Positions 36,026 through 46,268 of a stretch of DNA of 64,000 nucleotides are shown here, piece by piece. The position numbers were made by a program, and so were the translations under genes. How positions within the stretch are numbered: the stretch's first letter is position 1; each line of letters begins with the position of its first letter. The notes below the pieces were generated by a model. It was not told the origin of the DNA, did no database searches, and saw only the letters and a program-made list of their open reading frames with translations. Origin of the DNA: Haloarchaeobius salinus (GTDB lineage Archaea; Halobacteriota; Halobacteria; Halobacteriales; Natrialbaceae); contig NZ_JANHAU010000006.1 of NCBI RefSeq assembly GCF_024464185.1, forward strand, positions 62,001 to 126,000. Reading direction: 5' to 3'.

Positions 36026-36142
36026 TACAGGTCGTCGCGTTCACGGCCTGCGAGTCCCCTGACTGGACGGACCGAATCGTCGCGGGGACGGAAGGTTCGG
36101 TGGACGGGCGGTGGTGGGCACGATCCCCGCCCGTCGTCGCTG

Positions 36143-36175
36143 CCACCGGCGGCCTGGGCAAGGGGCCGGTGGCGT
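36143..36175. repeat. imperfect direct repeat, copy 1
   Basis: This 33-bp segment, starting CCACCGGCGGCCTGGGCA, matches the copy at 36232 at 27 of 33 positions. The start-to-start distance is 89 bp. Confidence 0.6.
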
Positions 36176-36231
36176 CCGAAACCGCACGGCCGACGGGTGT
36201 GGGCAGGCACGAACCCGCGCCGTCGGCCATA

Positions 36232-36264
36232 CCACCGGGGACCTGGGCAGGGACCCGATGGCGT
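36232..36264. repeat. imperfect direct repeat, copy 2
   Basis: Second copy, starting CCACCGGGGACCTGGGCA. Both copies end in TGGCGT. Confidence 0.6.
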
Positions 36265-36446
36265 GACAGGACCAGCGGCGCAGCCACGTCGGCGTCCCCC
36301 CGGGCACCGACGTGGTTCGGGCCGAACGTCTCGACCCTCCGTATCCCCCATCACGTCGACGTGGCCGAAGGGCCCACTGATCCCACTCGTGGCAACGGAT
36401 GCATCCATCCTCAACTCACCGACCGACACAGTGTCTCAGGACGTGA

Positions 36447-36456
36447 GTTTTAATAA
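36447..36456 (+). promoter_or_regulatory. TATA-like box before the NTPase/TPR gene
   Basis: GTTTTAATAA lies 30-39 nt before the ATG at 36486, the clearest A/T block in the spacer. Confidence 0.55.
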
Positions 36457-36485
36457 TGACCCTGACAAATCACTGCTGACGATAC

Positions 36486-39400
36486 ATGAGTCCCGACGAC
36501 GTCGCGTCCGCGGTCGAACTCCTCGACCGGCGGCGGCAGGTACTGGGCCACCTCGGTGGAGACGGACAGCACGTCAGGGACCTCTGCGACGAGCTGGACG
36601 TGTCACGCTCGACGGTCAACCGGGCCCTCCGCGAGCTCGAGGACGCGGGGTGGGTCGAGCGCGCGGACGACGGCTACGTCCGGACGACGACGGGCTCGCT
36701 GGCCCTCCAGAAGTACCGCGACCAGGTCACGGCCCTCGACGCCGTCCAGACACACGCCGATGCGCTGTCCCCACTGCCGGGCGACACGCTCCTCGACCCG
36801 GCGGTGCTGGCCGACGCGACCGTCGAGACGGTTGCCGACGCCGACCCGTTCGAGCTCGTGGGGCGGCTCCGCTCGGCGTTCGAGGACGCCAACGCCGTTC
36901 GCGGGGCCTGGCCCGCCGTCACCGACGACCGGACCGTCAGCGCACTCGCGACGCTCGCGGACGACCGTGGAGCCGTCGCACTCGGCGTCGACGAGACGGT
37001 GCACGCGACGATGCGGTCGGTCGCGCCGACGGTCTTCGGACAGACCGGCACCGAACACTGTCGGGTCGAGACCAGCGACGACGTGCCCGCGCGTCTCGGG
37101 GTCTTCCTCGTCGACGGCCCCGACGACCGACGCGTACTCGTGACGATCTACGACGGGGCCGGCACCATCCACGCAGTCGCCGACGTACCGGCGAACGACG
37201 CGGTGAGCAGCTGGGCCACGTCCGTGTTCGACACCACCGGGGTCCCGTCGTTCGACCGGACGGCGGTCGTCAGCCCCATCGTGACCGCCGGGTCGGAAGC
37301 CCCGGCGTGGCACGACGAGACCCAGGACGTGCTCCGTAGCCAGGGGTTCGTCCCCGTGGACGCGAGCACGCTCGCCCACGACGGCGAGTGGTCGCCCGGG
37401 GCCATGCTCCGGACGACGCCGACGCTCGCGGCCGTCGCGGCCGGGCAGACACTCGACCGCGAGCACGTCGTCGATGGGCAGCGACGGGAGGTCTCGGTCG
37501 ACCTCGTCGACGCGCTCGCGGCGGGCGGGAACCTGGCGCTCGTCGGCCCGCCGGGGTCGGGCAAGAGCACGGTCTGCAAGGCCGTCGCGTGTCGCTGGCG
37601 GGACCGCGGCATCGGCCCGGTCTGCTACAGGGAGAGCGACAGCGCCGCGGTGCTCGACGATCCCTTGACGCTCGCCTCGTCGCTCGAGACGGCGTCCGGA
37701 ACCCCGCTCGTCGTCGTCGAGGACGCCGTCCGACCGACGGCCAACGCCATCTTCGAGACCGTCGAGCAGCTCACCGACGAGGTCGCCTTCCTGTTCGACT
37801 CCCGGCGGTCCGAGTGGGCATCGCCGCCGGAGCCGCTCGACCCCCGCCGCGAGTCCCTCCGGCGCGACGGCGTCGAGTTCGTTCCCGTCCCCGGCCTGGA
37901 CGACGAGGAGCGCGAGCGACTCCACCACCACGTCGAGGCCATCGTCGACGGCCCGATCCCCCCGTTCGACGAGTTCGTCGCCGACGAGGACAGCGCCGAC
38001 GACTCCCTGGGGACGCCCCGAGCCGCGGGGAGCAAGGGTGCCGGGGAACTGCTGACGCTGGCTCACCGCTACGGCCACGCGGCGGACATCTCCCTCGAAC
38101 GGGACCGACGGGCCGCGAGCCCGCTGTCGCGCAACGTCCGTGACGTCTACGACGCCGTCGCCGACGACCGGGACGTGCTCGTCGTCGCGACGCTCGTGAA
38201 CGTGCTCAACGCCGCGGGACTCCCGGTGGACCGTGACCTCCTCGACGCGCTCGCCCTCGTGGACGACGGCCCCGACGGCCACGCCGTCGAGACCGCGGTG
38301 GACGTGCTCGAGGGTCGGATGCTGTTCCCCGACGAGAACGGGATGGAGGTGGTCCACGACGAGTGGTCGCACCGGTTCCTCACGCACCTGGTCGAGGAGC
38401 GCGAGGACGCCAGCGCACATCGCGTCTTCGCCGCGTCCGTCAACCCGCTGTTCCGACTCGTGACCGAGCCCGACCTGCGCGAGGAACTCGTCCGCTACCG
38501 ACAGGGCGACGCCCCGACCGTCGCCGCGTTCGACGACAGCCCGGACCACTGGCGGGACGTGGTCGTCGACCGCGTCTACGACCTCGGCCGGGACTCCCCC
38601 AGCCTCGCCTCGCTGTACGGGCACCCGAAGTACACCGAGCTGACGCTGCCCGACTCCTGCTCCACGCTGTGTCGGCGCAGAGCCCTCGTTGGGCGCGCAC
38701 AGATGCACGTCAACGCCGGCGAGTTCGAGGCGGGCCGCCAGGAGTGCGAACGCATCGTCGAGATCGCGGCGGCGCTCGAACCGGAGCGGAAGGGCACGCT
38801 GCTGCGTGCACGGAGCCTGGAGTTGCGGAGCATCATCGCCGAGCACAAGGGGGAGTTCGACCGCTCCCGCGAGCTGGCCGAACAGTCGCTGGCGCTGGTC
38901 CGGGAGGTCGACGACCGGAAGGGAGAGGCGTCCGTACTGAACGGCCTCGGCCTGGTCGCGTGGTACCAGGGCGACATCGACGAGGCCGAGCGGCGACTCC
39001 GGGACGCGCTCGCGATCTACGACGAGGTGCAGGTGAAGGAGACGGAGTCGTCGGTCCTGAGCCATCTGGGGATCATCCAGTGGGAGCGCGGGAACCTCGA
39101 GAAGGCCGTCGAGTTCTTCGAGGCGAGCCACCACATCCGACACGAGATCGGTGCCCGTCGGAAGGCCATCAGCACCAGCATCAACCTCGGCGTCGCGGCC
39201 AGGGATCGCGGCGACCTCGACGAGGCCGTCGGCCGGCTCCGTGGTGCCGTCGAGGAGGCGCGACTCCTCGGCGTCGCGAAGCAGGAATCGAACGCGAACA
39301 GGGCACTCGGGAACGCGCTCCGCTGGCGTGGCGAGTTCGACGGGTCCGCGGAGCACCTAGAGCGTGCGCTCGAGATCGCCCGCGACGAGGAGCTCCGGTA

Positions 39401-39872
39401 CCACGAGTGCCGCGCGCTGCGTGGGCTGGCGGCGACCCGGCGGGAACGCGGCGAGCTCGGCGAGTCGGAGCGGTTGCTCGACGCCTGCGACGAACTCGCG
39501 ACCGATGTCGGTGACGGGCGGGATACTGCACTCGCACGGGCACACCGTGGCCTGCTCGTACTCGCCCATGGAGCCCCCGACGAGGCCAGCACGGTGCTCG
39601 GCGAGGCCGTCGAGACCCTGGAGTCGCTCGACCGGTCGCCTGGGCTGGCACGGGCCAGACGCTGGCACGCACGGGCGCTCGATGCCGCCGGCGAGCACGA
39701 GCGGGCTCGCGACGCCTACGAGGCGGCCGTCGACCAGTACGAACGTATCGGTGCGACCCCCTACCTGCGGGAGACGCTCGACGAGCTCAGCGAGGTCTGT
39801 GAGCGCACCGGCGCGGACGAGACGGCGGCGACGTACCGGGACCGACTGGACGCCCTCGAGGCTAACAACTGA
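36486..39872 (+). CDS. fusion protein: winged helix, FilR1-like sensor, P-loop NTPase and TPR repeats
   Basis: A 1128-residue cytoplasmic protein combining modules that are usually separate. Residues 1-70 are a MarR-like winged helix (VRDLCDELDVSRSTVNRALRELEDAGWVER). Residues ~75-260 resemble the FilR1-type sensor of archaeal regulators (LDPAVLADATVETVADADPF, VHATMRSVAPTVFG, RLGVFLVDGPDDRRVLVTIYDG). A P-loop NTPase follows, with Walker A GPPGSGKST at 354-362 and Walker B LVVVEDAV near 408-415, then a helical region. From about residue 735 to the end at least eight TPR-like repeats (NAGEFEAGRQECERIVEI, GDIDEAERRLRDALAIYDEV, GNLEKAVEFFEASHHIRHEI). This is STAND/MalT-like: ligand binding could drive ATP-dependent oligomerisation. 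Target and ligand unknown; a defence role is possible. Confidence 0.88.
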   Translation: MSPDDVASAVELLDRRRQVLGHLGGDGQHVRDLCDELDVSRSTVNRALRELEDAGWVERADDGYVRTTTGSLALQKYRDQVTALDAVQTHADALSPLPGDTLLDPAVLADATVETVADADPFELVGRLRSAFEDANAVRGAWPAVTDDRTVSALATLADDRGAVALGVDETVHATMRSVAPTVFGQTGTEHCRVETSDDVPARLGVFLVDGPDDRRVLVTIYDGAGTIHAVADVPANDAVSSWATSVFDTTGVPSFDRTAVVSPIVTAGSEAPAWHDETQDVLRSQGFVPVDASTLAHDGEWSPGAMLRTTPTLAAVAAGQTLDREHVVDGQRREVSVDLVDALAAGGNLALVGPPGSGKSTVCKAVACRWRDRGIGPVCYRESDSAAVLDDPLTLASSLETASGTPLVVVEDAVRPTANAIFETVEQLTDEVAFLFDSRRSEWASPPEPLDPRRESLRRDGVEFVPVPGLDDEERERLHHHVEAIVDGPIPPFDEFVADEDSADDSLGTPRAAGSKGAGELLTLAHRYGHAADISLERDRRAASPLSRNVRDVYDAVADDRDVLVVATLVNVLNAAGLPVDRDLLDALALVDDGPDGHAVETAVDVLEGRMLFPDENGMEVVHDEWSHRFLTHLVEEREDASAHRVFAASVNPLFRLVTEPDLREELVRYRQGDAPTVAAFDDSPDHWRDVVVDRVYDLGRDSPSLASLYGHPKYTELTLPDSCSTLCRRRALVGRAQMHVNAGEFEAGRQECERIVEIAAALEPERKGTLLRARSLELRSIIAEHKGEFDRSRELAEQSLALVREVDDRKGEASVLNGLGLVAWYQGDIDEAERRLRDALAIYDEVQVKETESSVLSHLGIIQWERGNLEKAVEFFEASHHIRHEIGARRKAISTSINLGVAARDRGDLDEAVGRLRGAVEEARLLGVAKQESNANRALGNALRWRGEFDGSAEHLERALEIARDEELRYHECRALRGLAATRRERGELGESERLLDACDELATDVGDGRDTALARAHRGLLVLAHGAPDEASTVLGEAVETLESLDRSPGLARARRWHARALDAAGEHERARDAYEAAVDQYERIGATPYLRETLDELSEVCERTGADETAATYRDRLDALEANN

Positions 39873-41024: not shown

Positions 41025-42731
41025 CTACGACGACTCCTCGCGGCCCGTCAGTGACGCGACGGCCTCGCGTTCACGGGCCGTGGCGACGACCGACCGGATC
41101 GAGGACTCGTCGAGCCGGTACTCCCCGGTCGACTTCTCGCGGGCGACGACGCCCTCGCGCCGTAGCTCGGTGAGCGCGCTCTGGATGCGGTCGCTGCCGG
41201 TGTCGACGAACGTCGCGAGGTCGCTCACCGTCAGCGGAGCCTTCTCGCCGAGCACCGTGACGACCTCCCAGGTGTAGCGCTCGTTGCAGTCCGCCTCCCG
41301 GATGGCCCGCTCGACACGCTCGACGACGGGCTCGGTCTCGACGAGCTCGGTCACGTCGGCGGTCGCGTCGAGCTGTGCCTCGGCCGTCGCCTCGTCGCTC
41401 CGACCGGACCGCCGACGCTGGAGCTGTTCGACGGCCGTCTCGAGGAACGCGATGCGGTCGCGCTGGTCCCGGACGATGTCGGCGTCCACGTCGCCCCCGC
41501 GCAGCGACTCCGCCTCCTCGCGCAGGCTCTCGTTGCGTTTCTCCAGGCGCTCGACCTCGCCCTCCAGCTCGCGCACCCGTCGGCGGAGCTCGTTGCGCTC
41601 GGCCTCGATCTCGGCGTTGGTCTGGTCCTCGTCGTCCGCCTCGGACACGTCGTCGGTCGCCGCATCGCCGGTCGGGAGCGTCGACTGCTCGCCGGGCGTC
41701 TCGATGCCGGTGTTGCCCGCCATCGCGTCGGCCATCTGCTTGGCGGCGTTCGAGATGTCCTTCGCGCGTTCGAGCTCCTCCTCCAGCGTCTCGATGCGCT
41801 GTTCCTTCTTCTCGACCTCGGCCTCCAGCTCGAGGATGCGGCTCTCGCGCCGGGACTTCTCCTCGCTGATCTCCTCCAGGTCGTCGACCAGGGAGTCGCT
41901 GACCGACTTCAGCTCGGGCCGCTCGAAGTCGTCGAGTCCCGGCGTCGCGCCGGCGTCGAACGTGCGCTTGCGCCGGAACTGCACCGTCTCGACCTCCTGT
42001 TCGGCCCAGTCGGACATCATGAACGCCTGTCCCGCGTCGAGGTCGGTGACGCGCGCCTCGTACTCGCTGCCCAGGATGCGTCCGACAACGTTCGTGTCGT
42101 TCTCCCAGGTGAGCCGGTGCCAGACCAGCCAGTTCGCCTGCGTGATGAAGTCCTTCTTCACGTCGGCCGGGCGCTGGCTGATGCCGACGATGCCCAGCCC
42201 GTGCTTGCGCCCGCGCTTGCCGATCTTGATGAGCATCTTCCCCGTCTCGTCCATCCCACCGCCCTCGGGGATGTACTCGTGGACCTCCTCGACGACGAGC
42301 AGGAACGGCTTCTTCAGCTTCTTCTCCTTGGCGAACAGGTGCTTCGCGGTCTCGAGGATGAGCTCGTTCGCCTGCCCCTCGTCGAGATAGCCCGACACGT
42401 CGAGGATGATGGGGACGTTCTCCTCCAGTGCGAGGTTCGCCATCCGCTCGGCGTGCTCGGGCGCGATCTGGATGTCGCACTCCTCGTCCGCACCCGCGTG
42501 CAGCAGCTCGTACTCCTCCTTCAGCCCGTAGTACTCGCCGTCCGTGTCGACGATGAGCAGCGGGAAGCCCGCCTCGAGCAGCTCCTCGGCGATGACGCTC
42601 GCCGAGTTCGACTTCCCCGACCCGGACTTGCCCGTCACGAAGCCACGGCCGGTCAGCAGTTCCACGACGGGTACCTCCACGGCCGTCCCGTCAACCGTCT
42701 CTCCCAGTACGATCTCTTTCGTCTCGCTCAT
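41025..42731 (-). CDS. HerA-like ATPase with coiled coil and C-terminal winged helix
   Basis: A 568-residue ATPase. The RecA-like core (about 1-290) has Walker A FVTGKSGSGKSNSA (34-42 region), Walker B FLLVVEEVHEYIPE and the sensor-like IVGISQRPADV, as in HerA/DUF87 proteins that pump DNA. A long coiled coil (about 280-460; RRESRILELEAEVEKKEQRI, RRRVRELEGEVERLEKRNES) follows, and the last ~90 residues form a winged helix (VVTVLGEKAPLTVSDLATFVDTGSDRIQSALTELRREGVV). Canonical HerA pairs with NurA and Mre11-Rad50; neither gene is nearby. The extra coiled coil and wHTH suggest a DNA-associated motor with its own targeting. The lipoprotein gene upstream, on the same strand, has 57 nt spacing. Confidence 0.88.
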   Translation of the reverse strand: MSETKEIVLGETVDGTAVEVPVVELLTGRGFVTGKSGSGKSNSASVIAEELLEAGFPLLIVDTDGEYYGLKEEYELLHAGADEECDIQIAPEHAERMANLALEENVPIILDVSGYLDEGQANELILETAKHLFAKEKKLKKPFLLVVEEVHEYIPEGGGMDETGKMLIKIGKRGRKHGLGIVGISQRPADVKKDFITQANWLVWHRLTWENDTNVVGRILGSEYEARVTDLDAGQAFMMSDWAEQEVETVQFRRKRTFDAGATPGLDDFERPELKSVSDSLVDDLEEISEEKSRRESRILELEAEVEKKEQRIETLEEELERAKDISNAAKQMADAMAGNTGIETPGEQSTLPTGDAATDDVSEADDEDQTNAEIEAERNELRRRVRELEGEVERLEKRNESLREEAESLRGGDVDADIVRDQRDRIAFLETAVEQLQRRRSGRSDEATAEAQLDATADVTELVETEPVVERVERAIREADCNERYTWEVVTVLGEKAPLTVSDLATFVDTGSDRIQSALTELRREGVVAREKSTGEYRLDESSIRSVVATAREREAVASLTGREESS

Positions 42732-44655: not shown

Positions 44656-45273
44656 ATGGCTGAAACGTCTTTCTCCGGCAGAAATCTTGATACCGGGTGC
44701 GGCCCAGTTACGGACGAGTTCCACGTGGGCGAACTGATACCACTCGTCGTCGCCGAGAACCTCCCCTGGTGGCTCGGTGCCCCCCTCGCACAGCTCCTGT
44801 TGCTGCTAGGGGGCATCGCCATCGAGAAGACCTACGTCAACCGTGTGACGCCGTTCACCGGTTCGATGGCGGTGTTCGTCCACGTGCTCGTCTCCGGGGA
44901 GTCCTCCATCTGGACCGGGCTCTATCTGGATCTGGGGCTGCTCCTCGGCCTGTTCGGTGTCTGGGCCTACGCGGAGAACATCGTCGTCAACAGACCGGAG
45001 TTCAAACTCCTGGCGTACTTCGCCTACGCCCCGCTGACGGTGATACTCGTCGTGCTCTTGCCGAGCTGGCTGCTGTTCCCCGCGATCATCGTCGGGGCGG
45101 TGGTGAACTTCAAGCTCGTCGAGGAGCTAGCGCCCGCGAAGCCGTACTACTTCGGCCATCCTGACGAGGAGCGCGACGAGGGTGGAGCCGACGTGGGCGA
45201 CATCATCACCGCCGTCAAGGAGCGCGTACACGACCTCCAGGAGACCGTCGAGGCCCAGCGCGAGGCGAGCTAG
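44656..45273 (+). CDS. multi-helix membrane protein of unknown function
   Basis: A 205-residue integral membrane protein starting at an ATG preceded by GAGG. Four hydrophobic segments are evident (PWWLGAPLAQLLLLLGGIAI, TGSMAVFVHVLVSGE, WTGLYLDLGLLLGLFGVWAY, LLAYFAYAPLTVILVVLLPS with FPAIIVGAVVNFKLV). The last ~60 residues are soluble and end with a helix (IITAVKERVHDLQETVEAQR). I do not recognise the family. The upstream A/T-rich patch and gene fragment suggest it belongs to an accessory region. Convergent with the BtrH-like gene, only 4 nt apart or overlapping. Confidence 0.7.
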   Translation: MAETSFSGRNLDTGCGPVTDEFHVGELIPLVVAENLPWWLGAPLAQLLLLLGGIAIEKTYVNRVTPFTGSMAVFVHVLVSGESSIWTGLYLDLGLLLGLFGVWAYAENIVVNRPEFKLLAYFAYAPLTVILVVLLPSWLLFPAIIVGAVVNFKLVEELAPAKPYYFGHPDEERDEGGADVGDIITAVKERVHDLQETVEAQREAS

Positions 45274-46268
45274 AGCCTGTCCAGCAGGCGTTCGTACAGT
45301 GCTTCCTCGCGGTCCGTGACCGCGAGCACCGCCTCGCTCGCGTCGTCGTATGCCTGCTGGCTCTCCGCGGGGTCGTCCGCGAGGCCGGCCTGCTTCAGGT
45401 GCCCGGCGACGGTTCCCCAGTCGTCGTCGATACCGTGGACCTCGGCGACGACCTCGTCGTCCACCGCGTCGAGTTCGGGCTGGATCTCGTCGATGAAGGG
45501 CGCGAAGAGACCGCGGAACGCGCTCCCGCCGGTCCCGCGCTTCTCGACGTTCTGGTACGCGAAACGGGTGCACCACTCCGCGTCCGGCAGGTCGGGCCAG
45601 TCGGGGAGCGAGCGGCCGAACACACGCATCCCCTCGAGCCCGTTCGTCGCGTCGCCCTTCCAGGTCATCGAACCGGGGTCCAGCATCGCCCGTGCTGTCG
45701 TCCGGAGACCGTCCCGGGCCGCGTCCGCGACCGACCGCGAGGGGTCGTCCATCGCGACCAGCCAGTCGTTCGTCAGCTCGCCGAAGAAGCCGTGTTCGGA
45801 GCCCATCGCAGCACGCAGGTTCTCGAGCGAGAGCCGCTTGAGGTCGTCGTGCTCGCTGTCGGCGAGCGTCACCGACGCCTCGTCGTAGTCGACGGCGACG
45901 ACGACGTGCGGACTGAAGTGGACGTCGGAGTCGTAGTAGGGGAGGTAGAAGATGTCGACGAACAGCAGGACCGGCCGGCCGGCGTCGAGGTGTGCGGTCA
46001 CGTCGTCCCACGCCGCTTCGAAGGACTGGTCCGACTCCCGTTCGACGGTGACGTCCAGGTGCTCGAAGAACGTCGTCTCCAGCCACGGCGTGCGCCCGAC
46101 GAACTGCTTCGACGGTCCCTCCTCGGACTCGATGAAGCTGAAGCCGAGTCCCGCGCCGATACCGAAGCACATCGGCTCGGTGAGCCCCCACCGCCGGTAC
46201 GTCGCCACGTCCGTCAGCGACGTGGAGCCGCAGTGTGCCCCCGCCGCGTGGTCGAATCCGTCCAACAT
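45270..46268 (-). CDS. BtrH-like protein (BtrH N-terminal plus DUF4872 domain)
   Basis: A 332-residue protein. Residues 1-~130 match the BtrH N-terminal domain: GFDHAAGAHCGSTSLTDVATY with the presumed nucleophile Cys13, then GIGAGLGFSFIESEEG. The rest matches DUF4872 (HLDAGRPVLLFVDIFYLPYY, SPHVVVAVDYDEASVTLADS, LSLENLRAAMGSEHG). BtrH of butirosin synthesis transfers an acyl chain from an acyl-carrier protein to an amine; C39-peptidase-like chemistry with Cys and His in the ...SPHVVVAVDYD segment is expected. No polyketide or NRPS genes are nearby, so the acyl donor is unclear. It is divergent from a lactonase-like gene. Confidence 0.82.
   Translation of the reverse strand: MLDGFDHAAGAHCGSTSLTDVATYRRWGLTEPMCFGIGAGLGFSFIESEEGPSKQFVGRTPWLETTFFEHLDVTVERESDQSFEAAWDDVTAHLDAGRPVLLFVDIFYLPYYDSDVHFSPHVVVAVDYDEASVTLADSEHDDLKRLSLENLRAAMGSEHGFFGELTNDWLVAMDDPSRSVADAARDGLRTTARAMLDPGSMTWKGDATNGLEGMRVFGRSLPDWPDLPDAEWCTRFAYQNVEKRGTGGSAFRGLFAPFIDEIQPELDAVDDEVVAEVHGIDDDWGTVAGHLKQAGLADDPAESQQAYDDASEAVLAVTDREEALYERLLDRL

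Follow-up and report, generated by a model that had tools for sequence, protein, structure and literature searches.

The stretch of DNA analyzed here (the window) covers 64,000 nucleotides of the Haloarchaeobius salinus genome. At positions 36486 to 39872 of the plus strand lies an intact open reading frame that starts with ATG and encodes 1128 amino acids. A Pfam search placed four modules in this single polypeptide: a winged helix, a FilR1_middle domain, a P-loop STAND core, and TPRs (Table 1). The original prediction had joined a FilR1-type regulator, a STAND-like NTPase, and TPRs in one chain, and the profile searches found each of them. The upstream genes code for a TrmB-type regulator, TFB, a GFO/IDH/MocA oxidoreductase, a HAD hydrolase, and a class II aldolase; the downstream genes code for NikR, a class I glutamine amidotransferase, and a HerA-like ATPase. 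Gene neighborhoods are kept within a genus, and other genera have different, internally syntenic housekeeping neighbors. The HerA/DUF87-type ATPase (41028-42731, minus strand), the third gene downstream, has a long coiled-coil-like C-terminal half and lies near the STAND gene in all Haloarchaeobius loci examined. The window also encodes a BtrH_N/DUF4872 protein (butirosin BtrH-like; 45273-46268, minus strand), perhaps unexpected in a haloarchaeon.

Table 1. Features of the STAND gene and its promoter region (positions in the window)
Feature	Residues	Position	Strand	Basis or remark
Imperfect dyad AACTCAC...GTGAGTT, possible operator		36413..36449	.	Abuts the TATA-like box
TATA-like box TTTTAATAAT		36448..36457	+	About 30 nt before the ATG
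Winged-helix DNA-binding domain	13-86	36522..36743	+	Pfam HVO_A0261_N, E 2.6e-18
Recognition helix of the winged helix, SRSTVNRALREL
FilR1_middle, candidate second sensor	121-250	36846..37235	+	Pfam PF08350, E 2.6e-7
Pre-NOD linker	266-345	37281..37520	+	Common to every version of the chassis
STAND nucleotide-binding domain	346-450	37521..37835	+	Pfam nSTAND_NTPase5 and motifs
NOD helical domain and winged-helix domain (WHD)	451-640	37836..38405	+	Assigned by motif position
Putative arm domain	641-735	38406..38690	+	Inferred from its place between WHD and TPR, compare PH0952 and AfsR
Nine TPRs, C-terminal sensor	734-1128	38685..39869	+	TPR_12, 1e-34; TPR_MalT, 6.2e-16

Both N-terminal domains scored above their cut-offs, FilR1_middle with 31.2 bits against a cut-off of 27 (PF08350). 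Judged by these profile matches, the combination of HVO_A0261_N and FilR1_middle puts the protein among the FilR1-domain regulators. Four winged-helix residues (R41, T43, R46, and L51) are near-invariant (36 to 39 relatives). An AF2 model of residues 1 to 280, built from a three-sequence alignment, had a mean pLDDT of 45, and the winged helix alone was usable (about 70 to 87 over residues 11 to 70). Pfam detected no C-terminal HTH in the 1128-amino-acid protein; the DNA-binding domain is N-terminal. The literature searched yielded no ligand for FilR1_middle. Orthologues of nearly equal length are found in genome G326 (89% identity), Haloarchaeobius sp. FL176 (78%), and H. iranensis (78%). Among the domains compared between close orthologues, the winged helix is conserved best (94 to 97% identical), and FilR1_middle is the most divergent one in FL176 and H. 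iranensis (69 to 71%). Retention of the former with drift of the latter fits target DNA that stays constant and an input that changes faster.

The predicted positions of the NTPase motifs were exact, with GPPGSGKST at residues 354 to 362 and LVVVEDAV at 408 to 415. In the family alignment, G354, G357, G359, K360, and T362 of Walker A are invariant, and E412 and D413 of the Walker B motif LVVVED are conserved in 97% and 95% of members. R440, a sensor-1-like arginine after strand 4 that was assigned by position, is 95% conserved. The predicted WHD contains an MHD-like VHDEW (family form VH[DE]xW; H624 97%, W627 99%), which would occupy the MHD position; this assignment goes by motif position, as the AF2 model that covers the region has a mean pLDDT of 43. 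The STAND GxP motif was not found, and its nearest equivalent is GELLxL, in which G520 is 79% conserved and the P position is occupied by L or a similar residue. GxP is degenerate in part of the STAND superfamily. The nSTAND_NTPase5 profile covers residues 333 to 446 (E 1.7e-8), a borderline match for this protein (34.9 versus 34 bits), and it was detected at an E value of 0.01 or better in 39/39 aligned members. The multidomain build with superstructure-forming sensor repeats, as in STAND NTPases, is present, the repeats being the TPRs. These recur with a period of 40 residues, at which self-identity reaches 22%; at every other period between 30 and 45 it is 12% or less. Their Pfam matches span residues about 735 to 1111, with the start near residue 735 as predicted, and there are nine of them, where about eight had been predicted. 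Ahead of the core, residues G287, R309, G320, and R325 of the pre-NOD linker are kept in 91 to 97% of members, including members that have no winged helix.

Structural comparisons were less informative. The AF2 model of residues 264 to 758 (three-sequence alignment) had a mean pLDDT of 43. When profiles of the NOD, the WHD-arm region, and the N terminus were searched against the PDB, they hit P-loop proteins (ABC transporter), TPR proteins, and winged helices of a generic kind and nothing specific, and no solved STAND core was among the matches listed (the best 60 for the NOD). In an hhalign comparison with E. coli MalT, the TPR region matched with a probability of 60% and the NOD with 8%. From the motif anatomy (Walker A, the E-D pair, R440, and the WHD histidine), we take the core to be a divergent STAND lineage; the borderline Pfam match agrees with this.

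The family was surveyed in 391 Halobacteria genomes, with matches counted at an E value of 1e-20 or better. Matches were obtained in 99 of the 391; among the matches listed, roughly 80 had the STAND part, and the remaining ones of the 99 owed their match only to a stand-alone regulator or to the TPRs. An N-terminal winged helix was present in about 65 family ORFs (at least 60 loci) from 80 loci. All four modules were detected in 39/39 aligned relatives, each at an E value of 0.01 or better; homologues are fused and not split into two genes. The H. salinus genome itself has a second full-length gene of this type (C1:737907-741401, equivalent to L040:7378-10941; 1188 amino acids, about 30% identity) and 10 stand-alone WH-FilR1 proteins whose size is usual for regulators. 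In a quick-search tree of the N-terminal half, one branch (SH-aLRT 89) separates 32 fused proteins from 20 WH-FilR1 regulators of the stand-alone kind. In the STAND-core tree, members grouped by N-terminal type, and the WH-FilR1 class formed one group that also contained a single row with a kinase. A single fusion followed by joint inheritance is the simplest reading of both trees, with moderate support.

A STAND-core profile searched against 393 genomes of the phylum matched Halobacteria only, save for one weak match (G627, 9e-14), and the matches of the full-length profile outside Halobacteria were almost all TPR-only. About one in five of the haloarchaeal genomes sampled has a family member. 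Some copies are carried by large plasmids of Natronosalvus and Halocatena, and the annotation in the plasmid records examined reads "tetratricopeptide repeat protein" only. Viral contigs yielded one short P-loop match and nothing more. At least 11 members share the linker-NOD-TPR part and have no winged helix. Their N termini are helical and Gly-rich (L059, L076, L087, L088, L099, L101, L104, and L119) or contain long hydrophobic Gly/Ala stretches (L105 and L110/L117); neither kind had a convincing Pfam family match, and both are possible effector domains. Another of these members, L062:7127-11005, nested in the winged-helix clade, has a Ser/Thr protein kinase on the STAND-TPR chassis, as read from its partly masked sequence. 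We raise tentatively, with the odds against it, the idea that the haloarchaeal STAND lineage is an exchangeable chassis, in which a constant linker-NOD-TPR unit carries either a two-input regulator or effector-like helical or kinase domains, so that a single lineage would serve gene regulation and perhaps also immune or death signaling. In the two-input version, the FilR1_middle and TPR inputs would form an AND-type gate.

The region upstream of the gene was expected to contain a TATA box, and the TATA-like TTTTAATAAT was found there. This box is conserved in four Haloarchaeobius genomes, and many relatives have a comparable one at the same place. Given its distance from the ATG, the promoter is probably leaderless, and leaderless promoters are ordinary in haloarchaea. 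The outer arms of the adjoining dyad are kept in the four Haloarchaeobius genomes, with one mismatch in G326, and 2 to 10 of 50 shuffles matched them in length; we regard this dyad as a weak candidate operator. An operator dyad common to the family was looked for and not found. The gene had also been described as isolated and, from its upstream region, tightly regulated. A gap of 463 nt with repeats does lie upstream, but the isolation is only partial, since on the downstream side nikR begins after 60 nt in the same orientation. Moreover, the long gap is not a family trait (60 to 200 nt in many relatives), and tight regulation was not supported.

Positions 36070 to 36470 are 85 to 87% identical in three relatives, which is about the level of coding sequence. 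A conserved noncoding element (36080-36322), present in 4 of 6 Haloarchaeobius genomes and single-copy in this one, contains two imperfect direct repeats of 78 nt that could form hairpins (36098-36175 and 36187-36264) and a strong 14-bp dyad (36284-36315; z -4.2 as RNA), and GGGCA recurs in or near its predicted loops. The element had no Rfam match at an E value of 1 or better, and covariation among the four genomes was mostly uninformative, with broken pairs. Indels in the upstream alignment are not multiples of three, so the element probably does not encode protein. The search did not find it in the two Haloarchaeobius genomes that are more distant, so it does not belong to the STAND system in general.

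Together, these results lead us to propose, with a probability of roughly three in four, that the protein is an ATP-switched, autoinhibited STAND-type transcription regulator. By analogy with AfsR, MalT, and PH0952, from which we infer the nucleotide switch, the autoinhibition, and the oligomerization, the resting state would be an ADP-bound monomer whose core is kept closed by the arm and the TPR sensor. A ligand or protein would bind the TPR solenoid as the signal, a FilR1_middle ligand being a possible second input. ATP would then replace ADP, and the core would open and oligomerize, which would gather several winged helices on target promoters. This proposal is supported by the four modules in all 39 relatives and the near-invariant Walker A, E-D pair, R440, and WHD histidine; by the separation of the fused N termini from stand-alone regulators and the sorting of the STAND tree by N-terminal type; by the DNA-binding domain being the most conserved one in close orthologues; and by the regulator size of the 10 stand-alone WH-FilR1 proteins. 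The metabolic or regulatory neighbors also favor it, as do the precedents of AfsR (PMC10936776) and PH0952 (PMC6468293). It is weakened by the narrow margin of the STAND match, the low pLDDT, the nonconserved GxP, the hardly visible NOD match to MalT, and the lack of a solved STAND core among the matches listed.

We also considered an arrangement in which sensing falls chiefly to FilR1_middle, and the STAND-TPR part serves only to hold partner proteins and switches nucleotides little. TPRs commonly bind proteins, and in 10 proteins of the genome FilR1_middle and this kind of winged helix work on their own. However, the Walker A, Walker B, R440, and WHD histidine residues are among the most conserved of the family, FilR1_middle is its least conserved domain, and N-terminal types that have no FilR1_middle retain the same core, which makes this arrangement unlikely. 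As for an origin by chance fusion or by an assembly or annotation artifact, length alone invites the suspicion, as long spurious ORFs arise in GC-rich genomes. We give it practically no credence, because the four modules recur in all 39 relatives and the trees fit one fusion; the gene is also fused in at least 60 loci and has orthologues of nearly equal length in three further genomes.

The protein might instead be a STAND sensor of immunity (anti-phage or cell death), in which the N-terminal domain would be an effector or alarm and not an ordinary promoter regulator. In relatives, this STAND-TPR chassis carries other N termini, among them helical Gly-rich domains and a Ser/Thr kinase, much as immune STANDs swap effectors (PMC8195603), and some copies are on large plasmids. 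Nevertheless, the gene and its relatives lie among genus-specific housekeeping genes, and PADLOC detected no defense protein among the neighbors except generic matches of the HerA-like ATPase; the suggested linkage to defense islands thus found no support in the neighbors scanned. By Avs-like criteria, neither an N-terminal nuclease or toxic effector nor a defense-island context was found for the protein. Nuclease, NADase, and protease domains are absent from it and from the families that recur most often in its class, and its winged helix is strongly kept among orthologues. We consider an immune role quite improbable and retain the transcription regulator as the preferred reading. Few archaeal STAND regulators have been studied, and haloarchaeal genetics would open the nucleotide switch, the targets, and the possible two-sensor logic to testing. 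The chassis shared with other N termini is a case of STAND cores moving between transcription control and other outputs.

Among known systems, AfsR of Streptomyces coelicolor has almost the same layout and sizes (SARP-NOD-arm-TPR; DNA-binding module 1-270, NOD 271-618, arm, and TPR 778-993), and ATP binding relieves the inhibition that its NOD and TPR exert on the DNA-binding module (PMC10936776). It differs in having a bacterial OmpR-type/BTA activator domain that works via sigma and RNAP (PMC10936776) in place of HVO_A0261_N and FilR1_middle. AfsR has no FilR1 module, and we claim no homology for the N-terminal half; the NCBIfam AfsR match to our protein lies within the TPRs, far below the cut-off. 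PH0952 of Pyrococcus horikoshii is archaeal and a predicted transcription regulator of the same order (ArsR-like DBD-NOD-arm-TPR, its NOD being of the APAF1/MalT clade), crystallized without the DBD in an ADP-bound, doubly autoinhibited form in which a WHD histidine contacts the nucleotide (PMC6468293, PDB 6MFV). Going by that description, it has no FilR1_middle; 6MFV was not retrieved by the WHD-arm profile search of the PDB. MalT of E. coli is likewise a transcription regulator with STAND and TPR sensor parts, but its DNA-binding domain, a LuxR-type HTH, is C-terminal, it has no FilR1, and the NOD profile comparison was weak. Stand-alone haloarchaeal HVO_A0261_N-FilR1_middle regulators have the same two N-terminal domains in about 250 to 290 amino acids and no STAND-TPR part. 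FilR1 of Methanosaeta shares the FilR1_middle domain and carries a REC domain (PMC3991700). The order DBD-STAND-TPR, which the original prediction had presented as MalT turned around, is therefore already known in bacteria (AfsR; PMC10936776) and in archaea (PH0952; PMC6468293, PDB 6MFV). No FilR1-STAND fusion was described in the literature searched, in which subscription journals were thinly covered. What is new is FilR1_middle between the DNA-binding domain and the STAND core, a divergent STAND lineage found almost only in Halobacteria in this sample, and relatives whose STAND-TPR chassis bears another N terminus (helical domains and, in one case, a Ser/Thr kinase).
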